Below, piece after piece: positions 10,045-41,862 of a stretch of DNA of 64,000 nucleotides. Source of the stretch: Caballeronia sp. Lep1P3 (GTDB taxonomy: Bacteria; Pseudomonadota; Gammaproteobacteria; Burkholderiales; Burkholderiaceae); NCBI RefSeq assembly GCF_022879595.1, contig NZ_CP084265.1:620001-684000 (forward strand), given 5' to 3'. The stretch's first letter is position 1. Every line of letters starts with the position of its first letter. The translations under genes were made by a program, and so were the position numbers. The notes beneath the pieces are model-generated. The model searched no databases. It worked only from the letters and a program-made list of their open reading frames with translations, and was not told the DNA's origin.

Positions 10045-10073
10045 GGCATCGGAGCGGGCGGGAATACGCGCCG

Positions 10074-10104
10074 ATTATACGGACGACCCGGACATAATCT
10101 GTCC
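10074..10104 (-). promoter_or_regulatory. Candidate WYL/Sir2 operon promoter with inverted-repeat operator
   Basis: On the minus strand a perfect TATAAT (complement of 10074-10079) lies about 30 nt before the WYL start codon. Eleven bases further upstream is the perfect inverted repeat GGACATAATCTGTCC (10090-10104; arms GGACA and TGTCC). It falls where the -35 element would be, and no good -35 hexamer is visible. This fits a regulator binding its own promoter; the assignment is inference. Confidence 0.45.
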
Positions 10105-10187
10105 TGGTGGCGCATTGCGGGTGCGGGCAAGGCATCGCGCGCGGGACCGATCGCACGATGTATCGTCATATGGACGCGCGGCGCCCG

Positions 10188-10205
10188 CCCCCTAGAAACG
10201 AGGGG
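10188..10205. repeat. Short G/C inverted repeat, copy A
   Basis: CCCCCTAGAAACGAGGGG forms a 5-bp CCCCT/AGGGG stem with a 7-nt loop. Related hairpins of the type C5-6, short loop ending ACGA or TCGA, G4-5 occur at 17710-17746 and 17779-17797, each upstream of a plus-strand fatty-acid operon. It may be a shared operator or an RNA hairpin in the leader. Confidence 0.4.
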
Positions 10206-10212
10206 TGTGACC

Positions 10213-10222
10213 GGGGGGGGGG
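10213..10222 (+). repeat. Homopolymeric G10 tract upstream of the thiolase gene
   Basis: Ten consecutive G residues lie 62 nt before the ATG at 10285, in the leader or promoter of the first beta-oxidation operon. Runs this long are prone to slippage during replication. The tract could alter promoter spacing or fold with neighbouring G runs. No coding frame crosses it. Confidence 0.8.
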
Positions 10223-10284
10223 CGTGCCTATGATGGTCCGGTGCCGATTCGCACGGCGTGGTGACGACAACCCAAGGAGAACAT

Positions 10285-11466
10285 ATGACGCGCAAAGTGG
10301 TGGTGGCGGGCGTGGGCATGGTGCCGTTCAGAAAGCCCGGCGCCAGCGAGACTTACGACGTGATGGGCGCGCAGGCCGCGCGCCTCGCGCTCGACGACGC
10401 GCGCGTCGCTTACGAGGCGGTCCAGCAGGCATACGCCTGTTTCGTCTACGGCGATTCCACGGCGGGCCAGCGCGCGCTCTATCACGTCGGCATGACCGGC
10501 CTGCCGATCTTCAACGTGAACAACAACTGTTCCACCGGCTCGACGGGGCTGTTCCTCGCGCGGCAAGCCATCGAATCCGGCGCGATCGACGTCGCGCTCG
10601 TCGTCGGCTTCGAGCAGATGAACCCCGGCGCGCTCGGCAGCTACTTCAACGACCGGCCGCTGCCATCGGAGCTTTTTCTCGCGCAGTGCGACAGGCTCGG
10701 CGTGCCGGTGGACATTCCGCCCGCGCTGCGCATCTTCGGCGGGGCCGGGTTGGAGCACATGAAACGCTTCGACACGCCGGTCGAATCGTTCGCGAAGATC
10801 CGCGCGAAAGCGAGCCGGCACGCGGCGAACAACCCGCTCGCGGTGTTCCGCAAAGTGGTGAGCGCCGAAGAGGTGATGGCGGACCAGCTTCTGTGGCCTG
10901 GCGTGATGACGCGCCTGATGGCATGCCCGCCGACCTGCGGCGCGGCGGCGGCCGTCCTCTGCAGCGACGACTACGCCCGGCGCCACGGCCTCGACACGCG
11001 CGTGTGGATTGCCGCGCAGGCGCTCACGACCGACCGCCCGGAATCGCTTTCCGGCGACGACATGCGCTACGTCGCGGGTTACGGCATGTCGCGGGATGCG
11101 GCGCGTCAGGTGTACGAAGCATCGGGGATCGGCGCGGAAGACGTCGACGTGATCGAACTGCACGACTGCTTCGCGCACAACGAACTCATCACCTACGAGG
11201 CGCTCGGCCTGTGTCCGGAAGGCGGCGCGGCGAAGTTCATCGACGACGGCGACAACACCTACGGCGGGCGCTACGTGGTGAATCCGTCGGGCGGGCTGCT
11301 GTCGAAGGGGCATCCGCTCGGCGCAACGGGACTCGCACAATGCACCGAGCTCGTTCAGCAATTGCGCGGCGCGGCCGGCGAACGTCAGGTGCCCGATGCG
11401 CGTGTCGCGCTTCAGCACAACGTCGGGATCGGCGGCGCGTGTGTCGTCACGATGTATCGCAACTAA
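10285..11466 (+). CDS. Thiolase-fold lipid-transfer protein (SCP-x type)
   Basis: The protein has the fold and order of SCP-x/Ltp thiolases, which cleave or retro-aldol cleave branched and sterol side-chain acyl-CoAs. The nucleophilic cysteine is C82 in NNNCSTGSTG. The C-terminal catalytic region shows KGHPLGATG and NVGIGGACVV. The ATG at 10285 is preceded by AAGGAGA; a frame extension to 10258 has no comparable signal. At 393 residues it is the thiolase part only, without a fused SCP-2 domain. The acyl-CoA dehydrogenase pair follows 12 nt downstream, so the five genes to 15231 read as one operon. The substrate is inferred from context. Confidence 0.85.
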   Translation: MTRKVVVAGVGMVPFRKPGASETYDVMGAQAARLALDDARVAYEAVQQAYACFVYGDSTAGQRALYHVGMTGLPIFNVNNNCSTGSTGLFLARQAIESGAIDVALVVGFEQMNPGALGSYFNDRPLPSELFLAQCDRLGVPVDIPPALRIFGGAGLEHMKRFDTPVESFAKIRAKASRHAANNPLAVFRKVVSAEEVMADQLLWPGVMTRLMACPPTCGAAAAVLCSDDYARRHGLDTRVWIAAQALTTDRPESLSGDDMRYVAGYGMSRDAARQVYEASGIGAEDVDVIELHDCFAHNELITYEALGLCPEGGAAKFIDDGDNTYGGRYVVNPSGGLLSKGHPLGATGLAQCTELVQQLRGAAGERQVPDARVALQHNVGIGGACVVTMYRN

Positions 11467-11478
11467 GCGGAGCGTTCG

Positions 11479-12678
11479 ATGGATTTTCGACCCGATGCGG
11501 ACCTGGCCGCGTTCCGCGCGCAAGTCCGTGCATTCCTGCGCGAAAGCCTGCCGGCCGATCTCGCGAACAAGCCCGTCGGCAGCGTGCGTTCGATGCGCGC
11601 CGATCTCGTGCGCTGGCAGCGCATCCTGAACCAGCGAGGCTGGGGCGCGCCGTACTGGGCGAAGGAGCACGGCGGCACCGGCTGGTCGGTGATGCAGCGC
11701 CTCGTTTTCGACGAGGAATGCGTGGCCGCCGGCGCGCCGACGCAGGACGGCTTCGCGCAGAAGCTGCTCGGGCCGGTACTCAATGCATTCGGTTCGGTGC
11801 GGCAGCAGGCCGAACACCGGCCGCTCATCCTCAACGGCGAGCGTCTGTGGTGCCAGGGGTTTTCCGAACCGGGCTCAGGTTCGGATCTGGCGTCGCTCTC
11901 CACGCGCGCGGAGCGCGACGGCGATCACTACGTCGTGAACGGCCAGAAGATCTGGACGAGCTACGCGCATGAATCCGACTGGATCTTCCTGCTCGTGCGC
12001 ACCGACGCGGGCGCGAAGAAGCAGGCGGGCATCAGCTTTCTGCTCGTCGACATGGCGACGCCCGGCATCACCGTGCGCCCGATCCGCAGCATCGACGATT
12101 GCCATCACCTCAACGAGACGTTCTTCGACAACGTGCGCGTGCCGGTCGCGAACCGCGTCGGCGAGGAAGGCGAGGGCTGGAAGATCACCAAGTTTCTGCT
12201 CAACAACGAGCACGCGTCGGCGGCGGAATTGCCGCTGCTCAGGCGCTTCATCGCGCAGATCAGGACGCTGGCTTCGAGCGAACGCGCGGGCGGCAAGGCG
12301 CTGATCGAGCTGCCCGAGTTCGCGATGAAGCTCGCGCGCTTCGAGGCCGAAGTGAGCGCGATCGCCGCGATGGTCCAGCGCGTCGCCGCCCTGGAACACG
12401 ACCATAGCCCCGCCGCGCACGCGCTCGGATCGATCCTCAAGGTGCGCGGGACCGAGTTGCAGCAGCGCCTGTCGGAATTCATCGTCGATGCGCTCGGCGA
12501 TTACGGCGCGGTCGCGTATCCGGAGCCGCACGACGCCGGGTTCGGCCAGCCGATGCCGCATCAGGACATCGCGCGCGGCATGGCCAACGAGATGTTCTTC
12601 CGGCGCGCGTCCACGATCTACGGCGGAACGAGCGAAGTGCAGCGCGGCATCATCGCGAAGATGCTGTTCCAACTCTGA
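11479..12678 (+). CDS. Acyl-CoA dehydrogenase, putative catalytic subunit of a two-subunit enzyme
   Basis: A 399-residue FadE-family flavoprotein that introduces the alpha,beta double bond into acyl-CoA. It has the QGFSEPGSGSDLA substrate/FAD loop and the C-terminal YGGTSEVQRG motif (from Y381). The probable catalytic base is E244 in NNEHAS, the isovaleryl-CoA-dehydrogenase-type position; the position used by medium-chain enzymes is Gly here. It lacks the R-K-Q-F-G and H-G-G-x-G elements that normally bind FAD across the dimer. Those are present in the next gene, 10 nt downstream, so the pair probably forms a heteromer like mycobacterial FadE28-FadE29. Confidence 0.85.
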   Translation: MDFRPDADLAAFRAQVRAFLRESLPADLANKPVGSVRSMRADLVRWQRILNQRGWGAPYWAKEHGGTGWSVMQRLVFDEECVAAGAPTQDGFAQKLLGPVLNAFGSVRQQAEHRPLILNGERLWCQGFSEPGSGSDLASLSTRAERDGDHYVVNGQKIWTSYAHESDWIFLLVRTDAGAKKQAGISFLLVDMATPGITVRPIRSIDDCHHLNETFFDNVRVPVANRVGEEGEGWKITKFLLNNEHASAAELPLLRRFIAQIRTLASSERAGGKALIELPEFAMKLARFEAEVSAIAAMVQRVAALEHDHSPAAHALGSILKVRGTELQQRLSEFIVDALGDYGAVAYPEPHDAGFGQPMPHQDIARGMANEMFFRRASTIYGGTSEVQRGIIAKMLFQL

Positions 12679-12688
12679 GTGGCCTGAC

Positions 12689-13843
12689 ATGAACTTCAAA
12701 CTGGATTCGGAGCAGCAACTGCTGCAGGACAGCGTGCGCCGCTTCGTCGACAAGGAATGCGCCTTCGAAACGCGCGCGGCGCAGCTCGAAAGCGGTCCGT
12801 CCTGCGAGCCGAAGCACTGGCGGACCTTCGCGGACAACGGCTGGCTCGCCGCCGCGTTGCCCGAAGCGGTTGGCGGACTCGGCGGCTCGGTGATCGACAC
12901 GGCGCTGATCGCGCAGGCATTCGGCCGTGCGCTCGTGCTCGATCCTTTCCTCGGCTGCGCGGTGCTGGGCGCGCAGACGCTCGTGGCGGCCGCGACGCCC
13001 GCGCAGCTCGATCATTACGTGCCGCAACTCGCCGACGGCTCGCTGCGCCTCGCGCTCGCGTACAGCGAAGCGCAATCGCGCGGCTTTCCCGAGCCGGTCG
13101 GAACGCGCGCGACGCGCACCGCCGACGGCTATCGGCTGCGCGGCACGAAAACGCTCGCCATCGGCGCGGCGGGCGCGAACGCGTTCATCGTGTCGGCGCT
13201 TACGGGCGATGACGAGCCGCTCACGCTCTTTCTCGTCGGCGCGTCGAGCGCGGGCGTGACGTGCCGCGACCTGCCGTTGCACGACGGAAGCCGGGCGGCG
13301 GAAATCGTGCTCGACAACGTTCTCGTGCGCGAAGACGCCGTGCTCGGCGCGGAAGGCCACGGACTGCCCGCGCTGCGGCATGGACTCGCGCACGGCACCG
13401 CCGCGCTGTGCGCCGAACTGGTCGGCGGGATGGAGAAGGCCATCGAGTTGTCCGCCGACTATCTGAAGATGCGCAAGCAGTTCGGCGTGCCGATCGGCAG
13501 CTTTCAGGCGTTGCAGCATCGCATGGCGGACATGGCGGCTGAAATGGAAATCGCCCGGTCGATGCTTTACGCGCTCTTCGCGTCGCTCGAAAACGACGAC
13601 GCCCGCACACGCGAGCGCGCGGTATCGCAGGCGAAATCGCTGATTGGCCGCGCGGCGAAGTTCGTCTGCGCGCAGGCGATTCAGCTTCACGGCGGCATCG
13701 GCATGACCGAGGAGTACGCGGTCGGCCATTACTACAAGCGCGCGGTCGTCGCGGACGTCCTGTTCGGCAGCAGCGACCGTCACGATGCGGCCTGCGCCGC
13801 GCAACTGCAACAGGACCTGCTGCAAGGAGACACGACAGCATGA
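12689..13843 (+). CDS. Acyl-CoA dehydrogenase, putative FAD-supporting partner subunit
   Basis: A 384-residue acyl-CoA dehydrogenase homologue. It keeps the FAD-contact elements RKQFG and QLHGGIGMTEEY but ends without the usual E-G-T-S-x-I-Q motif. At the isovaleryl-type base position it reads HGLAHGTAA instead of a Glu. The motif content is thus complementary to the preceding gene. The start at 12689 begins MNFKLDSEQQLL, a typical family N-terminus, 10 nt after the previous stop. The gene overlaps the following MaoC gene by 4 nt (ATGA). Function as half of a heteromeric dehydrogenase is inferred. Confidence 0.82.
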   Translation: MNFKLDSEQQLLQDSVRRFVDKECAFETRAAQLESGPSCEPKHWRTFADNGWLAAALPEAVGGLGGSVIDTALIAQAFGRALVLDPFLGCAVLGAQTLVAAATPAQLDHYVPQLADGSLRLALAYSEAQSRGFPEPVGTRATRTADGYRLRGTKTLAIGAAGANAFIVSALTGDDEPLTLFLVGASSAGVTCRDLPLHDGSRAAEIVLDNVLVREDAVLGAEGHGLPALRHGLAHGTAALCAELVGGMEKAIELSADYLKMRKQFGVPIGSFQALQHRMADMAAEMEIARSMLYALFASLENDDARTRERAVSQAKSLIGRAAKFVCAQAIQLHGGIGMTEEYAVGHYYKRAVVADVLFGSSDRHDAACAAQLQQDLLQGDTTA

Positions 13844-14295
13844 GAACTTTCGACAGAATCGCGGAACTGGAAGCGCTCGTGGGCGAAGGCATCGGCACGA
13901 GCGACTGGCTCACGATCGACCAGTCGCGCGTGAATCTGTTCGCGGACGCGACGGGCGACCATCAATGGATCCACGTCGACGTCGAGCGCGCGAAGGCCGG
14001 CCCGTTCGGCGGCACCATCGCGCATGGCTTCCTGACGCTGAGCCTCATGCCCGCGTTTCTCGCGACGGCCTTTCAGATTCGCGAGACGAAAAGCGGCCTC
14101 AACTACGGCCTCGACAAGGTGCGGTTCATCGCGCCCGTGAAGGTCGGCACGCGCGTGCGGGCGCATTTCAGGCTGCTTGCGTGGGACGCCATCGGCAAGG
14201 GCGGCGCGCAGCTGAAAGTGGAAATGACCGTGGAATGCGAAGGATCGGACAAGCCCGCGTGCCTCGCGGAATCGATCATCCGGCTCTTTCCCTGA
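13840..14295 (+). CDS. MaoC-family enoyl-CoA hydratase
   Basis: A 151-residue single hot-dog domain of the MaoC/NodN hydratase family, which adds water to trans-2-enoyl-CoA, usually giving the R-3-hydroxy product. The hydratase-2-type motif appears as GDHQWIHVDVERA, supplying the catalytic Asp and His, followed by GGTIAHGFLTLSL. Translational coupling with the dehydrogenase partner by an ATGA overlap places it directly after the dehydrogenation step. The next gene, an SDR, would oxidise the hydroxy product. Narrow substrate range cannot be read from the sequence. Confidence 0.85.
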   Translation: MRTFDRIAELEALVGEGIGTSDWLTIDQSRVNLFADATGDHQWIHVDVERAKAGPFGGTIAHGFLTLSLMPAFLATAFQIRETKSGLNYGLDKVRFIAPVKVGTRVRAHFRLLAWDAIGKGGAQLKVEMTVECEGSDKPACLAESIIRLFP

Positions 14296-14331
14296 GTTTG
14301 CTTTCTCGACAATTGAACTGGAGTGTGAAGC

Positions 14332-15231
14332 ATGAGTATTCGTTTCGATGGCAAAGTCGCGATCGTCACCGGCGCGGGCGCGGGCCTTGGCCGCGCGCAT
14401 GCGCTTGCGTTCGCGGCACGCGGCGCGAAAGTGGTCGTCAATGACTTCGGCGGCGCGCGCGACGGCAGCGGCGGTTCGTCGGACGCGGCCCTCGCCGTGG
14501 TCGACGAAATTCGCAAGGCGGGCGGCGCGGCCATTGCCGATGGTGCGAACGTCGCGGACTTCGCCCAGGTACAGGCGATGGTGCGCCGCGCCGTGGCCGA
14601 GTTCGGGCGCGTGGACATCCTCGTGAACAACGCGGGCATACTGCGCGACAAGAGCTTCGCGAAGCTGGAAATGGCCGATATCGAAGCCGTTCTCGACGTT
14701 CACCTGATGGGCGCGATCAACTGCTCGAAGGCCGTGTGGGACATCATGCGCGAACAGGGTTACGGGCGCATCGTGATGACGACTTCGTCGTCGGGCATGT
14801 ACGGCAACTTCGGCCAGGCCAACTACGGCGCGGCGAAGATGGCGGTGATCGGCCTGATGAACGCGCTGACGACCGAAGGCAAGAAGAACAACATCAAGGT
14901 CAACACGATCGCGCCCGTCGCCGCGACGCGCATGACCGCCGACATCCTTCCCGAGGCCATGCTCGCGCGCATTCAGCCGGAGCGCGTCACGCCGGCCGTG
15001 CTGTTCCTCGCGAGCGACGACGCGCCGTCGAAGACGATCATCGCGGCAGGCGGCGGCGCGTTCGCTGCGGCGACCGTGGTGGAAACCGCGCCGGTGTTGC
15101 TGCCCGAAGCCGACGTGACGCCCGAAGGCGTGGCGGCGCACTTCGGCGAGATCGCGAACTGGAGCACGGCGCAGGCTTACGAGGAGTCGGGCCATCAGGT
15201 CGGCGCATTCCTGAAGCTGGTCTGCGGCTGA
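14332..15231 (+). CDS. SDR-family 3-hydroxyacyl-CoA dehydrogenase (MFE-2-like)
   Basis: A 299-residue short-chain dehydrogenase. The N-terminal TGAGAGLGRAHA loop followed by VVVNDFGG is characteristic of the dehydrogenase domain of peroxisomal multifunctional enzyme type 2, which oxidises R-3-hydroxyacyl-CoAs including branched and bile-acid intermediates. The catalytic Y165-x3-K169 is in NYGAAKM, with SSSGMYG before it. It follows the MaoC hydratase by 36 nt; together they supply the two activities fused in MFE-2. The stop codon lies inside a 9-bp tandem repeat, and a strong terminator follows, closing the first operon of the island. Confidence 0.82.
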   Translation: MSIRFDGKVAIVTGAGAGLGRAHALAFAARGAKVVVNDFGGARDGSGGSSDAALAVVDEIRKAGGAAIADGANVADFAQVQAMVRRAVAEFGRVDILVNNAGILRDKSFAKLEMADIEAVLDVHLMGAINCSKAVWDIMREQGYGRIVMTTSSSGMYGNFGQANYGAAKMAVIGLMNALTTEGKKNNIKVNTIAPVAATRMTADILPEAMLARIQPERVTPAVLFLASDDAPSKTIIAAGGGAFAAATVVETAPVLLPEADVTPEGVAAHFGEIANWSTAQAYEESGHQVGAFLKLVCG

Positions 15232-15272
15232 TCCGGCTGATCCTGCTGATCCTGCTGATCCCGCTGATCCCA
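15228..15272. repeat. Five tandem copies of a 9-bp repeat
   Basis: Five consecutive units of CTGATCC followed by two variable bases (GG, TG, TG, CG, CA) start at the last codon and stop of the SDR gene. The first unit contains its TGA. The array lies just before the operon terminator. It looks like a slippage-generated minisatellite. Confidence 0.85.
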
Positions 15273-15297
15273 ATAGCGCGAGACAGAGACCAAAAGA

Positions 15298-15327
15298 GCG
15301 CGCCCGGCAGAACCGGGCGCGCTTTTT
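15298..15327 (+). terminator. Rho-independent terminator after the first beta-oxidation operon
   Basis: A perfect 10-bp stem, GCGCGCCCGG and CCGGGCGCGC with a 5-nt loop, is followed by five T residues on the plus strand. It ends transcription from 10285-15231 before the convergent acyl-CoA dehydrogenase gene. Confidence 0.85.
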
Positions 15328-15352
15328 CGTTTCCGCGATTGAAAGCTGCGGT

Positions 15353-16498
15353 CTAGCCGAGACTGCGCGCGATGATGAGCTTCTGAATATGGCTCGTCCC
15401 TTCGTAGATCTTGCAGATTCGCACGTCGCGCAGATAGCGCTCGACCGGGAAGTCGGTGAGATAGCCGTAGCCGCCGTGAATCTGCAGCGCGTCCGAGCAG
15501 ACCTTTTCGGCCATCTCGCTTGCATGGAGCTTCGCGATGGACGCTTCCTTCACGCAGTCAATGGCCGCATCGCGCAGACGGGCGGCGTGCAGGCAGTACT
15601 GGTACGTGATATCGACCTGGGCGGCCATGTCCGCGAGATCGAACGCCACGCCTTGCAACCTGGCGATGGGCGCGCCGTAGGCTTCGCGCTCGTTCGCGTA
15701 GCGAATCGCGGCGTCGAGCGCCGCGCGCGCCACGCCCGCCGCGATGAACGCAATGCCGATGCGCCCATCCGACAAACCGCCCATGACGGTGCGATACCCG
15801 TCGCCTTCGCCGCCGAGCAGGTTCCCCGCCGGCACGCGGTAATTGTCCAGCGTGATCTGCGCGGTGTGCGCCGTGTGCTGGCCGAGCTTGCTCTCGATGC
15901 GCGTGATCTCGTAGCCGGGCTGTCGCGGATCGACGATGAACGTGCTCGCGCCGCGCTTGCCCGCGCGCTTGTCGGTCATCGCATAGACGACGCCCACGCC
16001 CGCTTCGCTGCCGTTCGAGATGAACTGCTTCGCGCCGTTGAGCACGTAGTGGTCGCCGTCGCGGTGCGCAGTGGCGCGCAAGGCGGCGGTGTCCGAGCCG
16101 GCTTGCGGTTCCGTGAGCAGGAATGCGCCAATCGATTCGCCGCGCGCCATCGCGGGAAGAAAGCGGCGTTTCTGCTCCTCGGTGCCGTTCTCCGCAATCG
16201 TGAGCGCCGTGAAATTGTGGACGTGGTTGATGGTCGCGAGGCCGGCATCGGCGGCGGCGATCTCGTGTTGAGCGAGGCAGAAGTCGAGCACGCCGGCTCC
16301 GGTGCCGCCGTATTCCTCCGGAATGAGCATGCCGAGATAGCCGAGGTCCGCGAGCGCCCTCAATTCGTCGCGCGGCCACGCCGATTCGCGGTCGCGCGCG
16401 GCTGCCGTCGGCGCGACGATCTCGCTCGTGACGCGGCGCGCGGAGTCGCGAATCAGACGCTGCTCTTCGGTCAGGAAAAAGTCGGATGAAGCGGTCAT
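15353..16498 (-). CDS. Acyl-CoA dehydrogenase (FadE family, complete motif set)
   Basis: A 381-residue acyl-CoA dehydrogenase with all usual elements: LTEPQAGSDTAA for substrate and flavin binding, the REAYGAPIARLQ region, QIHGGYGYLTDF, and the catalytic Glu366 in IYEGTSHIQK near the C-terminus. It is of the homotetrameric short/branched-chain type, unlike the split pair encoded at 11479-13843. The start at 16498 overlaps the stop of the upstream racemase gene as ATGA, so the two are translationally coupled. This is the second gene of a two-gene minus-strand operon within the island. Confidence 0.92.
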   Translation of the reverse strand: MTASSDFFLTEEQRLIRDSARRVTSEIVAPTAAARDRESAWPRDELRALADLGYLGMLIPEEYGGTGAGVLDFCLAQHEIAAADAGLATINHVHNFTALTIAENGTEEQKRRFLPAMARGESIGAFLLTEPQAGSDTAALRATAHRDGDHYVLNGAKQFISNGSEAGVGVVYAMTDKRAGKRGASTFIVDPRQPGYEITRIESKLGQHTAHTAQITLDNYRVPAGNLLGGEGDGYRTVMGGLSDGRIGIAFIAAGVARAALDAAIRYANEREAYGAPIARLQGVAFDLADMAAQVDITYQYCLHAARLRDAAIDCVKEASIAKLHASEMAEKVCSDALQIHGGYGYLTDFPVERYLRDVRICKIYEGTSHIQKLIIARSLG

Positions 16499-17661
16499 CG
16501 TGCGTGTCCCTTGTTTGCGGTGATGGAGTTGGGGCAGGGCGCCCAGTCGCGCAGCACCGCTTCCGTGTGTTCGCCGCGGCGAGGAATCGCGCCGGGCGCC
16601 TGTGCGGGCGTTGCGGAAAAGCGCGGCGCGGCAGTCGGCTGCAAGATGCCGTGTTCGCGCGAATAGACGCCGCGCGCGCGCATGTGCGGGTGTGACGCCG
16701 CTTCGTCCGGGGTCAGCACCGGGGCGAAACAGACATCGGTGCCTTCGAGCAGGCGGCACCACTCGTCGCGGCTGCGGGTCGCGAAGATGCCCGCAAGACG
16801 CTCGCGCAGCGCGGGCCAGTTTTCCGGGTCGTAGGGGCGGTCGAAGGCGGGATCGTCGGCGAGGCCGAGCTTTTCGCGCAATAGCCGGTAGAACTTGGGT
16901 TCGAGCGCGCCGACCGAGACATACGCGCCGTCCGCGCAGCGATACGTGTGGTACCAGTGCGGGCCGTCGAGCAGGCTCTTGCCGCGCGCGGCCACCATCT
17001 GCTGCGACGCCTGCAACGCGAGCAGCAGGCTCGTCATGTGCGCGCTTCCATCGACGATGGCGGCGTCGATCACCTGTCCCTCGCCGGTGGCGCACGCGTG
17101 CACGACACCCGCGAGAATGCCGACGGCGAGATACATCGCGCCGCCGCCCACGTCGCCGACGAGACTCGGCGGGCTGACCGGCGCGCTGCCGGGCTCGCCC
17201 GCGTACCAGAGCGCGCCCGAGAGCGCGACGTAGTTCAGATCGTGCCCGGCTGCGTGAGCGAGCGGTCCGTGCTGGCCCCAGCCGGTCATGCGTCCGTAGA
17301 CGAGGCGCCGGTTGCGCGCGAGGCATACGTCGGGGCCGAGGCCGAGCCGCTCCATCACGCCGGGGCGCATGCCTTCGATGAGCGCGTCGCAACGCTCGAC
17401 GAGCCCGAGCACGGTCGCGACGCCCTCGGGCGATTTGAGATCGACGGCGATCGATCGCTTGCCGCGATTGGCAATCTGCGCATCGCCGAGATCGAGCGCG
17501 TCGGCGGCGGCCTCGACGCGATCGACCACGACGACATCCGCGCCGAGGTCCGCGAGCAGCATGCCGCAGAACGGCCCCGGCCCGATGCCGGCGATCTCCA
17601 GCACGCGCAGTCCCGCGAGCGGCCCGCGCCTTTTCGCCGTGATAGCGGTCGTCGCTGTCAT
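16495..17661 (-). CDS. Alpha-methylacyl-CoA racemase (CaiB/BaiF fold)
   Basis: A 388-residue family III CoA-transferase fold protein. The diagnostic stretch AGHDLNYVALSG contains His140, and SLVGDVGGGAM contains Asp170. The pair is spaced 30 residues apart, as in the catalytic His126/Asp156 of Mycobacterium MCR. This supports racemisation of 2-methylacyl-CoA rather than CoA transfer, which would use an Asp nucleophile at the His-Asp block. Racemases of this type convert 2R to 2S epimers so that stereospecific acyl-CoA dehydrogenases can act. The start at 17661 follows a GGGAGA box. It is first in an operon with an acyl-CoA dehydrogenase. Confidence 0.8.
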   Translation of the reverse strand: MTATTAITAKRRGPLAGLRVLEIAGIGPGPFCGMLLADLGADVVVVDRVEAAADALDLGDAQIANRGKRSIAVDLKSPEGVATVLGLVERCDALIEGMRPGVMERLGLGPDVCLARNRRLVYGRMTGWGQHGPLAHAAGHDLNYVALSGALWYAGEPGSAPVSPPSLVGDVGGGAMYLAVGILAGVVHACATGEGQVIDAAIVDGSAHMTSLLLALQASQQMVAARGKSLLDGPHWYHTYRCADGAYVSVGALEPKFYRLLREKLGLADDPAFDRPYDPENWPALRERLAGIFATRSRDEWCRLLEGTDVCFAPVLTPDEAASHPHMRARGVYSREHGILQPTAAPRFSATPAQAPGAIPRRGEHTEAVLRDWAPCPNSITANKGHAR

Positions 17662-17683
17662 GGCTGTCTCCCTGTGATTGTCT

Positions 17684-17709
17684 GCGGGCCATGATAGTGA
17701 GCGGCCCGC
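17684..17709. repeat. Inverted repeat next to the racemase start
   Basis: GCGGGCC at 17684-17690 and GGCCCGC at 17703-17709 form a 7-bp perfect inverted repeat with a 12-nt spacer, 23 nt upstream of the racemase start codon on the minus strand. It lies in the divergent promoter region and could be an operator. Confidence 0.4.
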
Positions 17710-17746
17710 GCACGCACGCCCCCTCGTCGAGAGGGGGCGCGTGTGC
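17710..17746. repeat. Long G/C hairpin, copy B
   Basis: Arms at 17710-17725 and 17731-17746 pair over 16 positions with two mismatches around a GTCGA loop; the core is CCCCCTC/GAGGGGG. It resembles the hairpins at 10188 and 17779. It lies between the divergent racemase and SDR operons. Confidence 0.55.
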
Positions 17747-17778
17747 CCGCGCCGGCGCGCTGGCCGCCCAACGGGCGT

Positions 17779-17797
17779 CCCCCCGTTTACGAGGGGG
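17779..17797. repeat. Short G/C inverted repeat, copy C
   Basis: CCCCCCGTTTACGAGGGGG pairs CCCCC with GGGGG and CGT with ACG around a two-base centre, with one unpaired A. It lies about 105 nt before the SDR start and shares the ACGAGGGG right half with copy A at 10188. Confidence 0.5.
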
Positions 17798-17902
17798 CGG
17801 CGTTCGTCCGGATCGCGAATATTCTGGGTGACGTGCCCGCAAAGCCGGCCGCAGGCGGACGAGGACATCGGCGAGATCGGCGCGCTCAACGAGGAGACAA
17901 GC

Positions 17903-18649
17903 ATGAAACTGGAGAACAAGGTTGCGATCGTGACGGGGGCCGCCTCCGGCCTCGGGCTCGCGACGTGCCACGCGCTCGCGGCGGCCGGCGCGAAAGTCGT
18001 CGGGTTCGATCTCGACGGCGACAAGCTCAAGGAAGCGCTCGGTCGAGACATCGCGTCGATCGCCGTGGATGTCGCCGACGAAGCGAGCGTCGCCGATGCG
18101 GTCCGCGAGGTTGTCGCGCGGCACGGCGGCGTGCACATCGCGGTGAATTGCGCCGGCATTCTCGGGCCGTGCAAGACGATATTCAAGGGTCAGCTCTTTC
18201 CCGGCGAATTGTGGAACCGCGTGCTGGCCGTCAATCTCACCGGCACGTTCAACGTGGTCCGTCACGCCGCGCTCGCCATGACGCGGAACGAACCCGAAGA
18301 CACCGGCGAGCGCGGCGTCATCATCAATACGGCATCGGGCGCGGCGAAGGGCGGGCAGATGGGCCAGGCCGCGTACAGCGCGAGCAAGGCCGGCGTGATC
18401 GGCATGACGGTTCCCGTCGCGCGCGATCTCGCGGAACACGGCATTCGCGTGCTCGCCATCGCGCCGGGGCTTTTCGAGTCCGGCATGTCGGCCGGAATGC
18501 CGCAGAAGGTGTCGGACGGCCTCATCGAGAAGATGCTGTTTCCGCGCCGCATGGGCCGCGCGAGCGAGTTCGCGCAGCTCGTGCTCGATCTCATCGGCAA
18601 CGCATACATGAACGCGACCACCGTCGACATCGACTGCGGCACGCGCTAG
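17903..18649 (+). CDS. SDR-family 3-hydroxyacyl-CoA dehydrogenase (HSD10/type II-like)
   Basis: A 248-residue classical short-chain dehydrogenase of the type II 3-hydroxyacyl-CoA dehydrogenase group, whose members oxidise short and 2-methyl-branched 3-hydroxyacyl-CoAs. The cofactor loop is TGAASGLGLA, with the specificity Asp in FDLDGDK favouring NAD. The catalytic Y158-x3-K162 sits in AAYSASKAG, preceded by NTASGAAKGGQMGQ, a signature of the HSD10-like branch. A GAGGAGA box precedes the ATG at 17903. It is the first gene of the second plus-strand operon of the island, running to 23853. Confidence 0.85.
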   Translation: MKLENKVAIVTGAASGLGLATCHALAAAGAKVVGFDLDGDKLKEALGRDIASIAVDVADEASVADAVREVVARHGGVHIAVNCAGILGPCKTIFKGQLFPGELWNRVLAVNLTGTFNVVRHAALAMTRNEPEDTGERGVIINTASGAAKGGQMGQAAYSASKAGVIGMTVPVARDLAEHGIRVLAIAPGLFESGMSAGMPQKVSDGLIEKMLFPRRMGRASEFAQLVLDLIGNAYMNATTVDIDCGTR

Positions 18650-18687
18650 GCATTGCTTCACGAAAAGCCAATTCAGAGGACTTCAGC

Positions 18688-20769
18688 ATGACAGCGATGT
18701 ATCACCTTGAGCACGACGTGGCCGTCATCACGCTCGACCATCCTCCCGTCAACGGTCTCTGCCACGCCACCCGCATCGGCATCATGAATGCGCTGAACCG
18801 CGCGCTCGACGACGCCTCCGTGAAGGCGATCGTCGTCACCGGCGCCGGCAACGCGTTTTCGGGCGGCGCGGACATCCGCGAGTTCGGCACGCCCGCCGCG
18901 TTCGCGGAGCCGAGTCTCGCGACGGTGATCGGCGCGATCGAGGCATCGGCGAAACCGGTTGTCGCCGCCATTCACTCGGTCGCGATGGGCGGCGGCCTGG
19001 AACTCGCGCTCGGCTGTCACTATCGGCTCGCCACGCGAGACGCGAAGATCGCGCTGCCCGAAGTGAACCTCGGTCTATTGCCCGGCGCGGGCGGCACGCA
19101 GCGCCTGCCGCGCGCGATCGGCCTCGAAGCGGCTCTGAACATGATCGTCTCGGGCAAGACCCGGCTCGCGGGGCAGTTCGCGGGCGCGGGGCTTTTCGAC
19201 GAGATCGTCGCGGGCGCCGCGCTCGCCGCCGCCGTGAGCTTCGCGCGCGCCGCAGCCGAAAGCGGCGGGACGCATCCGCGTTTGCGCGACATCGACGTGC
19301 GCCATGAGAACGCCGAGGCGTATCTAGGTTTCGCGCGCAGCACTGTCGCGGCGAGCGCGGGACCGTATCCGGCGCCGCTCGCGTGCGTGGATGCGGTCGC
19401 GGCATCGCTCAAGCCGTTCGACGCCGGTATCGACGCGGAGCGCGACGGCTTTTTCTTCCTGATGAACACGCCCGAATCGCGCGCGCTGCGGCACGCGTTT
19501 CTCGGCGAGCGCGCGGCGAGCCGCATTCCCGACGTTCCCGCCGATACGCCGGTGCGCAACATCGCGCGCGTCGCGGTGGTCGGCGCGGGCACGATGGGCG
19601 GCGGCATCGCCATGTGCTTTCTGAATGCGGGATTGCCGGTCACGATGCTGGAGACGAAAGCGGACGCGCTCGAACGCGGCGTGAGCGCCATTCGCCGCAA
19701 CTACGAGAACTCGGCGAAGAAAGGCAAGCTCACGCAAGCACAACTCGACGCCCGCATGGCGCTCTTGCGAACCACGCTTTCCTACGACGACATTCGCGAC
19801 GCCGACCTCGTCGTCGAAGCCGTGTTCGAGGACATGGCCGTGAAAAAGGCCGTCTTTCAGCGTCTCGACGAAGTGATGAAGCCCGGCGCGATCCTCGCCT
19901 CGAATACCTCGACGCTCGACGTGAACGCGATCGCATCGTTCACGCGGCGTCCGCAAGACGTGGTCGGCACGCACTTCTTCAGCCCCGCGAACGTCATGCG
20001 GCTGCTCGAAGTCGTGCGTGGCGCGCGCACCGCGAACGACGTGCTCGCAACCGTGATGCGGCTCGCGAAGAAGATCGGCAAGGTCGCGGTAGTCTCGGGC
20101 GTGTGCGACGGGTTCATCGGCAACCGGATGGTGGAGCAGTACAGCCGTCAGGCGGGCTTTCTGCTCGACGAGGGCGCGCTGCCGCAGCAAGTCGATCGCG
20201 CGATCGAGCGCTTCGGCTTCGCGATGGGTCCGTTCCGCATGATCGACATGGCGGGCAACGACATCAGCTGGGCCATCCGAAAGCGCCGCGCGGTCGAGCA
20301 GCCCGAGTTCAACTACTCGAAGACGGGCGACCTCTTGTGCGAGATGGGGCGCTTCGGCCAGAAGGTCGGAGCCGGCTGGTACGACTACAAGCCGGGCGAG
20401 CGCAAGGCGCATCCGAGCCCGCTCGTCGACGAGATGATCGTGCGGCACTCGAAGGCGCTCGGCGTGACGCGCCGCGCGATCAGCGACGAAGAGATCGTCG
20501 AGCGGCTCGTCTTCGCGCTCGTGAACGAAGGCGCGATGATTCTCGCGGAAGGCATCGCGTCGAAGGCGTCGGACATCGACATGGTCTATCTCAACGGCTA
20601 TGGCTTTCCGAAGTTCCGTGGCGGCCCGATGCACTACGCGGACGAAGTCGGCCTCTACAACGTCGTGCAGGCGATCTCCCGCTACGCGAAGGGCTATCAG
20701 GGACACGCGTGGCACGTTGCGCCGATGCTGCAAAAGCTCGCCGACGCGGGCAAGACCTTCAACCACTGA
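18688..20769 (+). CDS. Bifunctional enoyl-CoA hydratase / 3-hydroxyacyl-CoA dehydrogenase
   Basis: A 693-residue FadB/peroxisomal-bifunctional-type enzyme. The crotonase domain occupies roughly residues 1-200, with an oxyanion region at SGGADIREF and the two catalytic Glu in GGGLELALG and [14 protein letters not shown]. From about residue 293 a Rossmann domain starts at [14 protein letters not shown], followed by the [13 protein letters not shown] active-site region and two 3HCDH C-terminal domains. The domain order and length resemble the peroxisomal bifunctional enzyme more than E. coli FadB. It follows the SDR by 38 nt and precedes a thiolase by 29 nt. Confidence 0.92.
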
Positions 20770-20798
20770 CGCGCATCCATTCAGCCAACGGGGACAAC

Positions 20799-21977
20799 AT
20801 GAACGAAGCAGTGATCGTATCTACCGCGCGCACCGCACTGGCGAAGAGCTGGAAGGGCGCGTTCAACATGACCCACGGCGCGACGCTCGGCGGCCACGCG
20901 GTCGGCCACGCGATCGCGCGCGCCGGCATCGAGGCGGGCGAAGTCGAGGACGTGCTGATCGGCTGCGCGAATCCGGAGGGCGCTACGGGCGGCAACATCG
21001 GCCGGCAGATCGCGTTGCGCGCGGGCTGTCCGGTGACGGTGCCGGGCGCGACCATCAACCGCTTCTGTTCGTCCGGATTGCAGAGCATTGCGATGGCCGC
21101 GCAACGCGTGATCGCGGGCGAGGGCGAAATCTTCCTCGCGGGCGGCGTCGAGAGCATCTCGTGGACGCAGCGTCAGATGAACCTGCAGTTCGCGAACGAT
21201 CCGTGGCTCGCCGAGCACAAGCCCGAAATCTACTGGAGCATGCTGCAGACCGCCGAACAGGTCGCGAAGCGCTACGGCATCTCGCGCGAGCGCCAGGACG
21301 AATACGGCGTCGCCAGCCAGCAGCGCGCCGCCGCCGCGCGCGAGGCCGGCCGTTTCGACGATGAAATCGTGCCGATGACCGTGAGGGCGGGCGTCGTCGA
21401 TCAGGCGAGCGGCGAGATCGTGACGCGCGAAGTGACGATTGCGTCGGACGAAGGCATCCGCGCCGACACGACGCTGGAAGGCGTCGCGAAGATTCGCACG
21501 GCGTTTCCCGGCGGCGTCATTTCGGCGGGCAACGCGTCGCAATTTTCCGATGGCGCATCGGCGTGCGTCGTCATGGATGCGCGCGTGGCCGAGGCGCGCG
21601 GGCTGCGTCCGCTCGGCGCGTTCCGGGGCTTTGCGGTGACGGGCTGCGAGCCCGATGAAATGGGCATCGGTCCGGTGTTCGCCGTGCCCAAGCTGCTGAA
21701 AAAAGCGGGCCTCACCGTTGACGACATCGGCCTGTGGGAGCTGAATGAGGCCTTCGCCGTGCAGGTTCTCTATTGCGCCGACACGCTCGGCATCCCGATG
21801 GAGCGCCTCAACGTGGACGGCGGCGCGATTGCGGTGGGGCATCCCTTCGGCGTGTCGGGCGCGCGGCTCGTCGGGCACGCGCTCATCGAAGGCAAACGCC
21901 GCGGCGTGAAGTACGCAGTGGTGACGATGTGCATCGGCGGCGGACAAGGCGCCGCCGGCCTGTTCGAGCTCTTTTGA
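20799..21977 (+). CDS. Acetyl-CoA acyltransferase (3-ketoacyl-CoA thiolase)
   Basis: A 392-residue type I thiolase that cleaves 3-ketoacyl-CoA with CoA. The nucleophilic cysteine is C90 in [10 protein letters not shown]. The other catalytic motifs are [19 protein letters not shown] with the active His, and [11 protein letters not shown] with the C-terminal active Cys. It sits between the bifunctional hydratase/dehydrogenase and the large acyl-CoA dehydrogenase, 13 nt ahead of the latter. The island therefore carries two thiolases of different subfamilies: this one for linear chain shortening, and the SCP-x-like one at 10285. Confidence 0.93.
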
Positions 21978-21990
21978 CGAGGACGCTGAC

Positions 21991-23853
21991 ATGTCGTTGA
22001 TCCTTTCCCGCCGCGACCTGAACTTCATGCTGTACGAGTGGCTGAAGGTCGAGGCGCTGACCGCGATTCCGCGTTACGCGGATCATTCGCGCGAGACCTT
22101 CGACGCCGCGCTCGATACTTGCGAGAAGATCGCCACCGACCTCTTCGCGACGCACAACAAGAAGAACGATCAGCACGAACCGCATTTCGACGGCAAGACG
22201 GTGCACGTCATTCCCGAAGTGAAGGCGGCGCTCGCGGCGTTCTGCGAGGCGGGGCTGATGGCGGCGGGGCAGGATGACGAACTCGGCGGCATGCAGTTGC
22301 CGGTGGTCGTCGAGAAAGCCGGCTTCGCGTACTTTCTCGCGGCGAACATCGGCACGGCGGCGTATCCGTTTCTCACCATCGGCAATGCGAATCTCCTGCT
22401 CGCCTATGGTTCGCGCAGGCAGATCGACGCGTTCGTCCGGCCGCAAATGCAAGGGCGCTTCTTCGGGACGATGTGCCTGTCGGAGCCGCAGGCGGGATCA
22501 TCGCTGTCGGACATCACGACGCGCGCCGAGTACGAGGGCGAGTCGGCGTTCGGCGCGCAATATCGGCTGCGCGGCAACAAGATGTGGATTTCCGGCGGCG
22601 AGCATGAGCTATCCGACAACATCGTGCATCTGGTGCTCGCCAAGATTCCCGGTCCGGACGGCAAGCTCGTGCCGGGCGTCAAAGGCATTTCGCTTTTCAT
22701 CGTACCCAAGTTTCTCGTCGATGAAAATGGCGCGCCCGGCGAACACAACGACGTCGTGCTCGCGGGCCTCAATCACAAGATGGGCTATCGCGGCACGACC
22801 AACTGTCTGCTCAACTTCGGCGAAGGCATGCAGCACCGTCCGCGCGGCGAGGCGGGCGCGATAGGCTATCTCGTCGGCGAGGCGGGCGCGGGCCTCGCGT
22901 GCATGTTCCACATGATGAACGAGGCGCGCATCGGCGTGGGGCTGGGCGCGGCGGCGCTCGGCTACACCGGCTATCTGCATGCGCTCGACTACGCGCGCAA
23001 CCGCCCGCAGGGACGCACGGCGGGCGCGGGCGGCAAGAATCCGGCAAGCCCGCAGGTGAAGCTGGTCGAGCATGCCGACGTGCGCCGCATGCTGCTCGCG
23101 CAGAAGAGCTATGTGGAGGGCGGTCTCGCGCTGACGCTGTACTGCGCGAAACTCGTCGATGAAGCGCGCGCCGCCCGCGTCGCCGACGACATTGCGCAAC
23201 ACGAACGTCTCACGCTGCTGCTGGACATCCTGACGCCGATCGCGAAGAGTTGGCCGTCGCAATGGTGTCTCAAAGCGAACGATCTCGCGATTCAGGTGCA
23301 CGGCGGTTACGGCTACACGCGCGAGTACAACGTCGAACAGTTTTATCGCGACAACCGGTTGAACCCGATCCACGAAGGCACGCACGGCATTCAGGGGCTG
23401 GACCTGCTCGGGCGCAAGGTGACGATGCAGGGCGGCGCGGCGCTTCGGCTGCTCGTCGACCGGATGCACGCAAGCGCGGCGCGCGCGTCGGCCACGCGGG
23501 TGACGGCGCTCGCAGCGCATGCCTCGTTGCTCGACGACGCGGTCACGCGCCTGCTGCACGTCACGCGCATGCTGTGGACGGCGGACGATGCGACAGTGAC
23601 GCTCGCGAATTCATCCGTCTATCTCGAAGCGTTCGGCCATGTGGTGATGGCGTGGATGTGGCTCGAGCAGGCGCTCGCGGCAGACTCGGGGCTCGCGCGC
23701 GCACGCAGCGACGAGGACGCGGCTTTCTATCGCGGCAAGTTGGCGGCGGCGGCGTATTTCTTTCGATGGGAGTTGCCGCGAGTCGGTCCGCAACTCGATT
23801 TGCTGGCGTCGTTCGATCGCACGACGCTGGATGTGCAGGACGCGTGGTTTTGA
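21991..23853 (+). CDS. Large acyl-CoA dehydrogenase with extended C-terminus (DmdC-like)
   Basis: A 620-residue acyl-CoA dehydrogenase, longer than the usual 380-400 because of N- and C-terminal additions typical of the group that includes 3-methylmercaptopropionyl-CoA dehydrogenase (DmdC). The core shows LSEPQAGSSLSDI, the conserved KGISLFIVPKF stretch of this group, VHGGYGYTREYNVEQFYRD and the catalytic E462 in IHEGTHGIQGLDLLGRK. The last 130 residues form the helical C-terminal domain. It is the last gene of the operon beginning at 17903. Whether its substrate is a sulfur compound or an ordinary acyl-CoA cannot be decided here. Confidence 0.88.
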   Translation: MSLILSRRDLNFMLYEWLKVEALTAIPRYADHSRETFDAALDTCEKIATDLFATHNKKNDQHEPHFDGKTVHVIPEVKAALAAFCEAGLMAAGQDDELGGMQLPVVVEKAGFAYFLAANIGTAAYPFLTIGNANLLLAYGSRRQIDAFVRPQMQGRFFGTMCLSEPQAGSSLSDITTRAEYEGESAFGAQYRLRGNKMWISGGEHELSDNIVHLVLAKIPGPDGKLVPGVKGISLFIVPKFLVDENGAPGEHNDVVLAGLNHKMGYRGTTNCLLNFGEGMQHRPRGEAGAIGYLVGEAGAGLACMFHMMNEARIGVGLGAAALGYTGYLHALDYARNRPQGRTAGAGGKNPASPQVKLVEHADVRRMLLAQKSYVEGGLALTLYCAKLVDEARAARVADDIAQHERLTLLLDILTPIAKSWPSQWCLKANDLAIQVHGGYGYTREYNVEQFYRDNRLNPIHEGTHGIQGLDLLGRKVTMQGGAALRLLVDRMHASAARASATRVTALAAHASLLDDAVTRLLHVTRMLWTADDATVTLANSSVYLEAFGHVVMAWMWLEQALAADSGLARARSDEDAAFYRGKLAAAAYFFRWELPRVGPQLDLLASFDRTTLDVQDAWF

Positions 23854-23997
23854 AGGAGCGGGGCGCTCGATAGCATCAACGCTTCAGAAGCCAAAAGAGC
23901 GCAACTGGCGCCGCGCCGCGTATCGTTCGCGAATTTCGCATAGCGGTGCGAAGGATTGCGGTGCGCGGACGCTCACGCGAAAGCCGAGCCGCAAAGC

Positions 23998-24028
23998 AAA
24001 AAGCCCAGTCACGAAGACTGGGCTTTTT
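23998..24028. terminator. Bidirectional rho-independent terminator
   Basis: AAAAAGCCCAGTC and GACTGGGCTTTTT pair over 13 bases around ACGAA, with an A run on one side and a T run on the other. It can stop the plus-strand operon ending at 23853 and the minus-strand tRNA transcript starting upstream of 24114. Confidence 0.9.
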
Positions 24029-24038
24029 GTTTGATTCT

Positions 24039-24114
24039 TGGTAGGCCGTGCGGGATTCGAACCTGCGACCAACGGATTAAAAGTCCGCTGCTCTACCAGC
24101 TGAGCTAACGACCC
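24039..24114 (-). tRNA. tRNA-Lys (anticodon UUU)
   Basis: The minus strand reads GGGTCGTTAGCTCAGCTGG at its 5' end and ends with an encoded CCA, 76 nt in all. The cloverleaf is complete: D arm with AGCTCAGCTGGTAGAGCA, anticodon loop CTTTTAA giving UUU, T loop GGTTCGAATCC, and a seven-pair acceptor stem (GGGTCGT with a partner ending before ACCA, one G-U included). A consensus promoter lies directly upstream. It is not part of a tRNA cluster, and no integrated element abuts its 3' end. Confidence 0.97.
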
Positions 24115-24126
24115 GAAAGAGGCGAA

Positions 24127-38800: not shown

Positions 38801-38850
38801 GTGCGTTCTCCAATGTGAGCGAAAGCGCCTTCGCCGGGCGCTTGACGTGG

Positions 38851-38867
38851 GTTCCGCTATGCGGAAC
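38851..38867. promoter_or_regulatory. Candidate IclR-type operator between gcdH and its divergent regulator
   Basis: GTTCCGCTATGCGGAAC is a perfect inverted repeat with 7-bp arms and a 3-bp centre. Dyads with a TTCCGC/GCGGAA core are typical binding sites of IclR-family regulators. It lies 50 nt upstream of the gcdH start and 35 nt upstream of the IclR start, so one dimer site could control both genes. Confidence 0.7.
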
Positions 38868-38902
38868 AATGTTCTGCAAATGAGCGATCAGTTTAGCATT
38901 CG

Positions 38903-39691: not shown

Positions 39692-39703
39692 AACCGGGCA
39701 GGC

Positions 39704-40573: not shown

Positions 40574-40584
40574 GATTCCAGTCC

Positions 40585-41835: not shown

Positions 41836-41862
41836 CGAAAAGTCCATTTGTTCGGGGAAGAT

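Follow-up and report, generated by a model that had tools for sequence, protein, structure and literature searches.

The sequence studied here is a stretch of 64,000 nucleotides (the window) from C1, the chromosome of Caballeronia sp. Lep1P3, whose genome comprises 6.18 Mb. Between positions 10285 and 23853 of the window, eleven intact acyl-CoA open frames were found by open reading frame, family and structure-sequence searches, and all could be placed by sequence in known families (Table 1). A first-pass annotation of the same DNA had described an acyl-CoA island here. Each enzyme type that it named was found as an intact open frame, and its list was incomplete in one respect, as it had omitted ACAD3, one of the acyl-CoA dehydrogenases (ACADs). 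The island genes stand behind two copies of a palindrome that also marks a second group of genes on another replicon, C3.

Table 1. Features of the island and its borders (positions in the window).
Feature	Position	Strand	Remark
Operator palindrome CCCCT-N7-AGGGG	10189–10205	.	about 80 bp ahead of the SCPx start codon; the genome has 5 in all
SCPx, SCP2/SCP-x type-1 thiolase	10285–11466	+	NF006102 over cut-off
ACAD1, acyl-CoA dehydrogenase subunit 1, catalytic-type	11479–12678	+	E244 aligned with Glu of 4x28_A
ACAD2, acyl-CoA dehydrogenase subunit 2, presumed ACAD1 partner	12689–13843	+	no Glu at the usual positions
MaoC-type enoyl-CoA hydratase	13840–14295	+	GDxxxxH present
SDR1, MFE-2-like (3R)-hydroxyacyl-CoA dehydrogenase of the short-chain dehydrogenase (SDR) type	14332–15231	+	nearest matches are MFE-2-type structures
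ACAD3, third acyl-CoA dehydrogenase of about 380 aa	15353–16498	-	YEGTS present; 4-base frame overlap with the racemase
AMACR, alpha-methylacyl-CoA racemase	16495–17661	-	H/D/E aligned with MCR His126/Asp156/Glu241
Operator palindrome	17720–17736	.	in the gap between AMACR and SDR2, which diverge
SDR2, HSD10-like short-chain dehydrogenase	17903–18649	+	
FadB'-type enoyl-CoA hydratase/3-hydroxyacyl-CoA dehydrogenase	18688–20769	+	
FadA-type thiolase (second thiolase)	20799–21977	+	NF005494 over cut-off
ACAD4, acyl-CoA dehydrogenase of 620 aa	21991–23853	+	Acyl-CoA_dh_C domain
tRNA-Lys, island border	24039–24114	-	

The new and strongest element of the analysis is a two-replicon regulon with a 17-bp operator. 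The pattern CCCCT-N7-AGGGG occurred exactly five times in the genome, at C1:630189 and C1:637720 (window 10189 and 17720) and at C3:16887, 20631 and 31132. The reversed pattern, used as the control, had no occurrence in this genome, and dinucleotide shuffles of the window gave a mean of 0.01 sites against the two observed. All five site centres were located 67–204 bp ahead of the nearest cluster-gene homologue. Furthermore, when the upstream regions of relatives were aligned, the palindrome was kept before SCPx, in the gap between AMACR and SDR2, in the gap between the LuxR-type regulator and ECH, and before the DUF1302 gene. A run of ten G at window positions 10213–10222, between the first operator and the SCPx start, was absent from seven aligned relatives and may reflect either slippage or the assembly.

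The first-pass annotation had stated that transport genes were absent from the window. This is true of the island, and such genes are therefore sited on another replicon, as C3 carries a transport cassette, a ligase and a regulator under the same operator. In C. grimmiae, an AMP-binding ligase, DUF1302, DUF1329, YCF48-related, MMPL, hydrolase, WS/DGAT, LuxR-type regulator, ECH, thiolase and ACAD genes are annotated between or before the two enzyme modules described below. On C3, the region at about 10–31 kb contained ACAD5, Thio3, ECH, the LuxR/MalT-type regulator, an SDR, the ligase, MMPL, YCF48, DUF1329 and DUF1302, which were 71–93% identical to the C. grimmiae genes, and the homologues of the adjacent DUF1302-DUF1329-YCF48-MMPL genes stood in order. 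The DUF1302 gene was found once in the genome (C3:29194–30891, 302 bits) and in five of the 12 genomes searched. The regulator possessed GerE and MalT-type TPR domains, and the ECH beside Thio3 was nearest to EchA19, at 226.7 bits (cut-off 400). AmeABCD was described in the monoterpene island of Castellaniella defragrans, and it consists of the same four kinds of protein, namely DUF1302, DUF1329, YCF48/COG4447-like and HAE3-type RND (PMC6394551). The present cassette differs in being on another replicon than the main enzyme set, and the C. grimmiae protein scored below the cut-off of the HAE3 model. The cassette is a putative transporter that may import its substrate or, as expected of an AmeABCD system, export apolar compounds.

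The distribution of the operator was surveyed in 58 genomes of the genus, which are related and so do not make 58 independent trials of the comparison between sites and island. ACAD1 (E value of 1e-150 or better) was present in nine of them. The seven genomes in which ACAD1 was at least 79% identical contained 4, 5, 5, 5, 5, 5, and 9 sites, respectively, and the reversed control gave 0–2 in these genomes. All the other 51 genomes had 0–2 sites, with 0–8 matches of the reversed control per genome; two genomes with a more distant ACAD1 (70–73%) had 0 and 1 sites. The regulon is marked by the place and the number of the sites together, and not by their mere presence. In C. grimmiae R27, four of the five sites were at the cluster and one was elsewhere. 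In Burkholderia sp. 8Y, two sites were in the island, two stood before a stretch of ACADx, sulfatase and FGE-like genes (one of these having no scored gene up to 400 bp away), and one preceded a DUF1254 gene. Gene content, kept order, the palindrome, its genome-wide restriction to pathway promoters and its co-occurrence with a close island were computed directly. Because the sites are confined to pathway promoters, and because genomes with a close island have 4–9 of them compared with 0–2 elsewhere, the genes on the two replicons are regarded as one regulon.

The position of the operator was also compared in 35 loci, several of them from one genome. These loci were picked for having both cluster genes and sites, and the counts therefore show geometry, not enrichment. 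Most of the sites (55 of 62) were at most 400 bp ahead of a cluster-gene homologue. The distance from the site centre to SCPx was 88–93 bp in all ten loci with an SCPx site, and that to ECH was 86–87 bp in ten of 12 loci, the others being 73 bp and 5 bp, the latter in a frame-broken symbiont locus. Repeat loci and G038:C33, G007, G012 and G050, which were off cluster or relics, were left out of the 62 sites. One locus in G012 (L156, C3:176000–195900) had two sites beside a two-frame ligase match and a hydrolase, in a genome with no close ACAD1, and is probably a relic of the second locus. In C. glebae, both modules, the regulator, the ligase, a sulfatase and an FGE-like gene were on one contig of 52.7 kb with eight sites. 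In order, these sites stood ahead of the hydrolase and WS/DGAT genes, the FGE-like gene, ACADx, module B, the LuxR/ECH gap, SCPx, AMACR with a divergent run of HisD paralogue, sulfatase and thioesterase, and a porin followed by SDR2. The thioesterase, the porin and a phasin-like gene of C. glebae were recognised by eye.

The identities of the island proteins were then compared with known enzymes. AMACR aligned with MCR of M. tuberculosis over most of its length with 330 bits, MCR being its closest match, and carried His, Asp and Glu where MCR has His126, Asp156 and Glu241. These three residues are named as catalytic in MCR in PMC12246613. By its catalytic residues, the island racemase is assigned as an alpha-methylacyl-CoA racemase, and racemisation of 2-methylacyl-CoA is predicted. 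For SCPx, the nearest structure type was the type-1 SCP2-thiolase (6hsj, 430 bits), and the score with NF006102 was 655 bits against a cut-off of 436. Unlike an aldolase, SCPx retained the Cys, HDC, GHP and GIGGAC motifs, which are assumed here to be those of a thiolase active site; the active-site motifs that we assume for MaoC, SDR1 and FadA were likewise present. The nearest PDB entry of FadB' was 6ium (1153 bits), presumably the FadB' of Ralstonia eutropha.

The nearest matches of ACAD1 were 4x28_A and 6wy9/6wy8_B, which are heteromeric dehydrogenases, with 184 bits against 4x28. For ACAD2, the best PDB matches, 8i4p and 7w0j, were not heteromer partners; the partner subunit 6wy8_A came third, and 4x28_D was lower (86 bits against 4x28). 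ACAD1 has E244 at the helix-G place aligned with the Glu of 4x28_A, which we take to be the catalytic base of ChsE4, and ACAD2 has no Glu there or at the C-terminal place, presumably the other usual catalytic position. An adjacent pair with the Glu in one subunit only is what defines an alpha2-beta2 heteromer here, and ACAD1/ACAD2 look like such a pair. PimC/PimD pimeloyl-CoA dehydrogenase was rejected, both models scoring under their curated values (TIGR03204, 375.9 vs. 623.85 bits; TIGR03203, 277.6 vs. 652.7 bits). The name DmdC-like given to ACAD4 stays the first-pass annotation's own label, the finding in this protein being the Acyl-CoA_dh_C domain. That annotation had also recognised an enzyme set for alpha-methyl-branched or sterol/isoprenoid-type side chains. 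The MCR catalytic residues, the heteromer type of ACAD1, the MFE-2-like SDR and the type-1 SCP2-thiolase support it in that they make up the branched-chain set of peroxisomes. On these residues, the ACAD pair, the SDR and the thiolase, a branched-chain substrate is plausible.

The first-pass annotation had proposed a search for the gene order in relatives. The search gave 98 ACAD1 relatives, and 80 loci were retained. The comparison covered the 30 loci in which ACAD1 was at least 65% identical, and the 50 below this value were dropped. The gene order was counted by eye within flanks of about 10 kb, two of the loci sharing one Variovorax contig. SCPx-ACAD1-ACAD2 were consecutive in 24 of the 30 loci, AMACR at 65% or more was within the flanks in 19, and the complete order SCPx-ACAD1-ACAD2-MaoC-SDR1-ACAD3-AMACR was found in ten. 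Moreover, 19 of the 30 contained an operator site, and at least one Ame-type homologue was within the flanks in nine. Because its order recurs across the compared loci, the gene set of the island is not a chance grouping.

Two separable modules can be distinguished, module A (SCPx-ACAD1-ACAD2-MaoC-SDR1, the reversed ACAD3-AMACR, and SDR2) and module B (FadB'-FadA-ACAD4). In C. grimmiae Lep1A1, a 0.9-Mb plasmid carries module A, and module B lies some 10 kb upstream of it. The two modules of Burkholderia sp. 8Y stand together, as they do in the window, and porin and etf genes, recognised by eye, lie between them. In the 8Y island (L017, 8448–9638), etfB is whole and only the last 143 residues of etfA are present, etfA being whole in GAFFF1 and C. 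glebae. ACAD3 is in two frames in C. grimmiae R27 (L018, 9786–10927) and is one annotated gene in Lep1A1. An uncultured Paraburkholderia, the Vmac symbiont (L057), keeps much of the cluster with many genes over several frames, like a decaying symbiont genome. A variant cluster without a close ACAD1 (L159, G009:C27:33000–52000) has part of ACAD2 together with MaoC, LuxR and ACAD5 and a single operator site, and its LuxR-ACAD5 part resembles that of P. hiiakae (L040). Among the plasmid records, Variovorax PBL-E5, EBFNA2 and Massilia putida had other gene arrangements, the Variovorax VAI-C match was a CoA-transferase within another cluster, and the records of Variovorax PDNC026 and B. stagnalis were unannotated at this place.

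Beyond what the first-pass annotation had described, sulfatase and FGE-like genes were observed in the regulon, and FadB'-FadA-ACAD4 form a general module of the fatty-acid type. On C3, ACAD5 is followed by a HisD paralogue, a sulfatase and a thioesterase as in C. glebae (90, 85–86, and 77% identical, respectively), and an FGE-like gene is under the site C3:20631. Sulfatases of several kinds were at the cluster in P. monticola, WSM2232, C. glebae, P. phenoliruptrix HU18 (with a shortened frame) and a metagenome-assembled genome, and in 8Y a sulfatase was at a second locus. The sulfatase motif was CTAGR on C3 and CSPTR in 8Y, and the 8Y protein had the PF00884 domain; C-x-[P/A]-x-R is taken here as the FGE-dependent sulfatase site. 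Against NCBIfam, the sole library scanned, the arylsulfatase models were far under their cut-offs with the C3 sulfatase. As sulfatases were found at several clusters and none in the fetched stretches of C. grimmiae, the sulfatase looks like a trait of the regulon, though an inconstant one.

The HisD paralogue (L111, 12128–13441) shared 37% identity with C1:399550, the genome's other HisD-family member. The role of HisD in histidine biosynthesis was not assigned to it, as it is not the sole member of the family. Its identity to genes on plasmids of Klebsiella, Roseomonas, Rhizobium and Novosphingobium was 80–83%, and no common function was found in the neighbourhoods of these close relatives in Klebsiella, Novosphingobium and Roseomonas. 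Compared with HpsN, the 2,3-dihydroxypropane-1-sulfonate (DHPS) dehydrogenase of PMC11382572, it belongs to the same histidinol-dehydrogenase fold family, and a four-electron oxidation of an alcohol is plausible. It differs in having GKYPL in place of the His126 motif G-R-Y-A/S-H, and the HpsN role was rejected on this ground.

The island is probably, with some margin for doubt, the chromosomal half of a two-replicon catabolic regulon for a lipophilic alpha-methyl-branched chain. The sulfatase, the HisD paralogue and the ligase suggest entry as a sulfate ester, followed by alcohol, acid and CoA ester, and the substrate is possibly released from such an ester. The lipophilic compound would cross the envelope, in either direction, by the AmeABCD-like DUF1302/DUF1329/YCF48/MMPL system. 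A sulfate ester, where present, would be cleaved outside the cytoplasm by the sulfatase, matured by the FGE-like protein; the alcohol would be oxidised to the acid by the HisD-paralogue and SDR dehydrogenases, and the acid would be converted to the CoA ester by the AMP-forming ligase. The 2-methyl epimers would be equilibrated by AMACR. ACAD1/ACAD2, MaoC, the MFE-2-like SDR and the SCP-x thiolase would then run a peroxisome-like cycle yielding propionyl-CoA at the methyl-branched steps, while FadB'/FadA/ACAD4 and ECH-Thio3-ACAD5 may handle the straight steps with release of acetyl-CoA. The LuxR/MalT-type regulator, whose gene is next to one of the sites, would bind CCCCT-N7-AGGGG and switch on both replicons together. 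An (R)-type cycle with an epimerase is the peroxisomal logic for 2-methyl-branched acids, and module A is probably such a cycle, self-sufficient, with propionyl-CoA expected at each branched step. In its full form, as a dedicated split regulon for sulfate esters of alpha-methyl-branched lipophilic alcohols, with Ame-type transport, extracytoplasmic desulfation, oxidation, ligation, AMACR and a propionyl-CoA-yielding cycle, the proposal is tentative and rather unlikely to hold in every part. Among the matches listed for the open-licence literature, there was no described bacterial pathway in which a sulfatase and a racemase/SCP-x cycle belong to the same regulon.

The nearest known systems share parts of this design. 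Animal peroxisomal branched-chain beta-oxidation likewise joins a racemase, (R)-hydratase/(R)-dehydrogenase logic and an SCP-x thiolase. In the present system the polypeptides are separate, with MaoC and the SDR unfused, a dehydrogenase pair replaces the oxidase, and a bacterial regulator and envelope transport are added. The mycobacterial cholesterol side-chain set, which we take to comprise ChsE4-ChsE5, MCR and EchA19, is similar in the heteromeric type of ACAD1 and in a racemase nearest MCR, whereas the ACAD scores given above are modest and the window genome has no KshA_C match. The fad operon A0459-A0464 of R. eutropha H16 (described in PMC4230905) is similar in that the island FadB' is very close to 6ium, presumably the FadB' of that species; here the genes stand with module A, beside a second FadB' elsewhere in the genome.

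Other substrates were also considered. The island might shorten a steroid side chain, such as that of a bile alcohol or a cholesterol-like sulfate, with the nucleus degraded too. ACAD1 is nearest to 4x28_A and Tcur3483, presumably the steroid dehydrogenase ChsE4 and its Thermomonospora counterpart. In animals, AMACR, MFE-2 and SCP-x act on the C27 bile-acid side chains, and the ECH beside Thio3 is nearest to EchA19, although well under the cut-off. ChsE4/5 are named as heteromeric steroid ACADs, and KshA is given as the 9,10-seco step, in PMC8399759. A search for KshA_C, the ring-degradation family covered here, came out empty for the window genome, C. hypogeia and C. grimmiae R27, and the island-bearing 8Y gave just 23.7 bits (cut-off 23.3). 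The search itself works, as G034 gave 247 bits, and seven other genomes had 21–35 bits at best. Since KshA is absent, full aerobic steroid degradation in the window genome is unlikely. PMC8399759 also states that one bile-acid degrader showed no seco-steroids. Routes that do without KshA, or the use of a sterol-like compound for its side chain alone, would be compatible with the search result. The thiolase motifs, not aldolase-like, also argue against a steroid, which we regard as very unlikely. Of the branched or polycyclic side chain proposed by the first-pass annotation, the branched chain is plausible on the enzyme set, and a sterol nucleus is unlikely.

An auxiliary regulon for straight-chain beta-oxidation, induced by lipids, would account for module B, whose FadB' is nearest to 6ium, and for the hydrolase and WS/DGAT genes that follow a site in C. 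glebae. The R. eutropha FadB' acts on straight C4 substrates and its fad operon is induced by trioleate (PMC4230905), and this supports module B having a general role. DUF1302/DUF1329 proteins of P. putida are required on Tween 20 (PMC10866462). Nevertheless, AMACR, the SCP-x thiolase, MaoC and the MFE-2-like SDR would be superfluous for straight chains, and the genome already has another FadB' at C1:1576874 (64% identical to that of module B) and nine Thiolase_C loci. At least one FadB' was found in all 12 genomes searched, while the module is patchy, with ACAD1 in a minority of the genus, and a plain fatty-acid or lipid-ester role for the whole is unlikely. Degradation of mono- or sesquiterpene acids, as in the islands of Castellaniella and Pseudomonas sp. 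M1, with an oxidised terpenoid acid shortened and propionyl-CoA released, is possible but doubtful. The Ame-type cassette was described in a monoterpene island (PMC6394551). The M1 myrcene island has LuxR-type regulators over a CoA-dependent terpenoid pathway, and its study follows Prp (2-methylcitrate) proteins (PMC13111069); the 2-methyl acid myrcenoic acid is an intermediate (PMC10386936). An entry step by P450, the sole hydroxylase family searched, was rejected, as all three P450 loci of the genome are away from both halves, in neither of which a terpene hydroxylase was recognised. Terpene pathways of this kind offer no evident role for the sulfatase and FGE-like genes. The myrcene island is not taken as the same system, since the word racemase does not occur in the main texts of PMC10386936 and PMC13111069; the present regulon has in addition a racemase, an SCP-x thiolase and a sulfatase. 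Finally, the sulfatases and FGE-like genes may be passengers of the regulon that only scavenge sulfur, which has a real though less than even chance. They are not universal, and the sulfatases are of several unrelated types. However, the C. glebae sulfatase sits between two operator sites and that of 8Y follows ACADx behind two sites, and this placement ties the sulfatase by sequence to a carbon-source regulon.

Several observations weigh against the proposed branched-chain regulon. Burkholderia sp. 8Y has the island yet no DUF1302, the C. glebae contig, the part of that genome searched, yielded no Ame-type homologue, and the C. grimmiae hydrolase had a mere 60-residue match on C3. Chance matches are common in the genus, as shown by the reversed pattern. 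C. hypogeia has a related SCPx-ACAD1-SDR1-AMACR cluster with no site, G043 is the genome with a 70–73% ACAD1 and a single site, and 11 of the 30 compared loci lack a site. In addition, the absence of a sulfatase from the fetched C. grimmiae stretches counts here, the sulfatase groups are only about 26–45% identical to each other, and the HisD paralogue is in only three of the seven close-island genomes, with a 71% relative in one island-free genome. FadB'/FadA/ACAD4 by itself would fit plain fatty acids.

The site of the island on the chromosome was also investigated. The flanks in 8Y were the same as in the window, with a WCX-domain gene (91% identical) and SbcCD-like genes on the left and tRNA-Lys and tol-pal genes on the right. 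The left-flank gene (8956–10044) was sought in ten genomes, nine loci were fetched, and six were scanned for tRNAs, two of which showed no tRNA. The distance between tRNA-Lys and the homologue of this gene was 147–300 bp in four relatives, among them C. grimmiae R27, and the island site is therefore empty there. No integrase was found among the eleven island genes, and no direct repeat of nine or more bases was shared between 9901–10300 and 23851–24120; an integrative element with att repeats was rejected for want of such border repeats. Elsewhere in the window (37610–41847), an acyl-CoA dehydrogenase and an IclR regulator stand beside a kynureninase-type gene, which is perhaps a separate tryptophan/glutaryl-CoA locus.

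The 17-bp operator turns the guess of some branched substrate into a testable regulon, the inducers of which could name the substrate. One catabolic pathway is divided here between two replicons and joined by a shared operator. If the sulfate-ester proposal is true, organosulfate turnover would be linked to branched-lipid catabolism in Caballeronia and Paraburkholderia.

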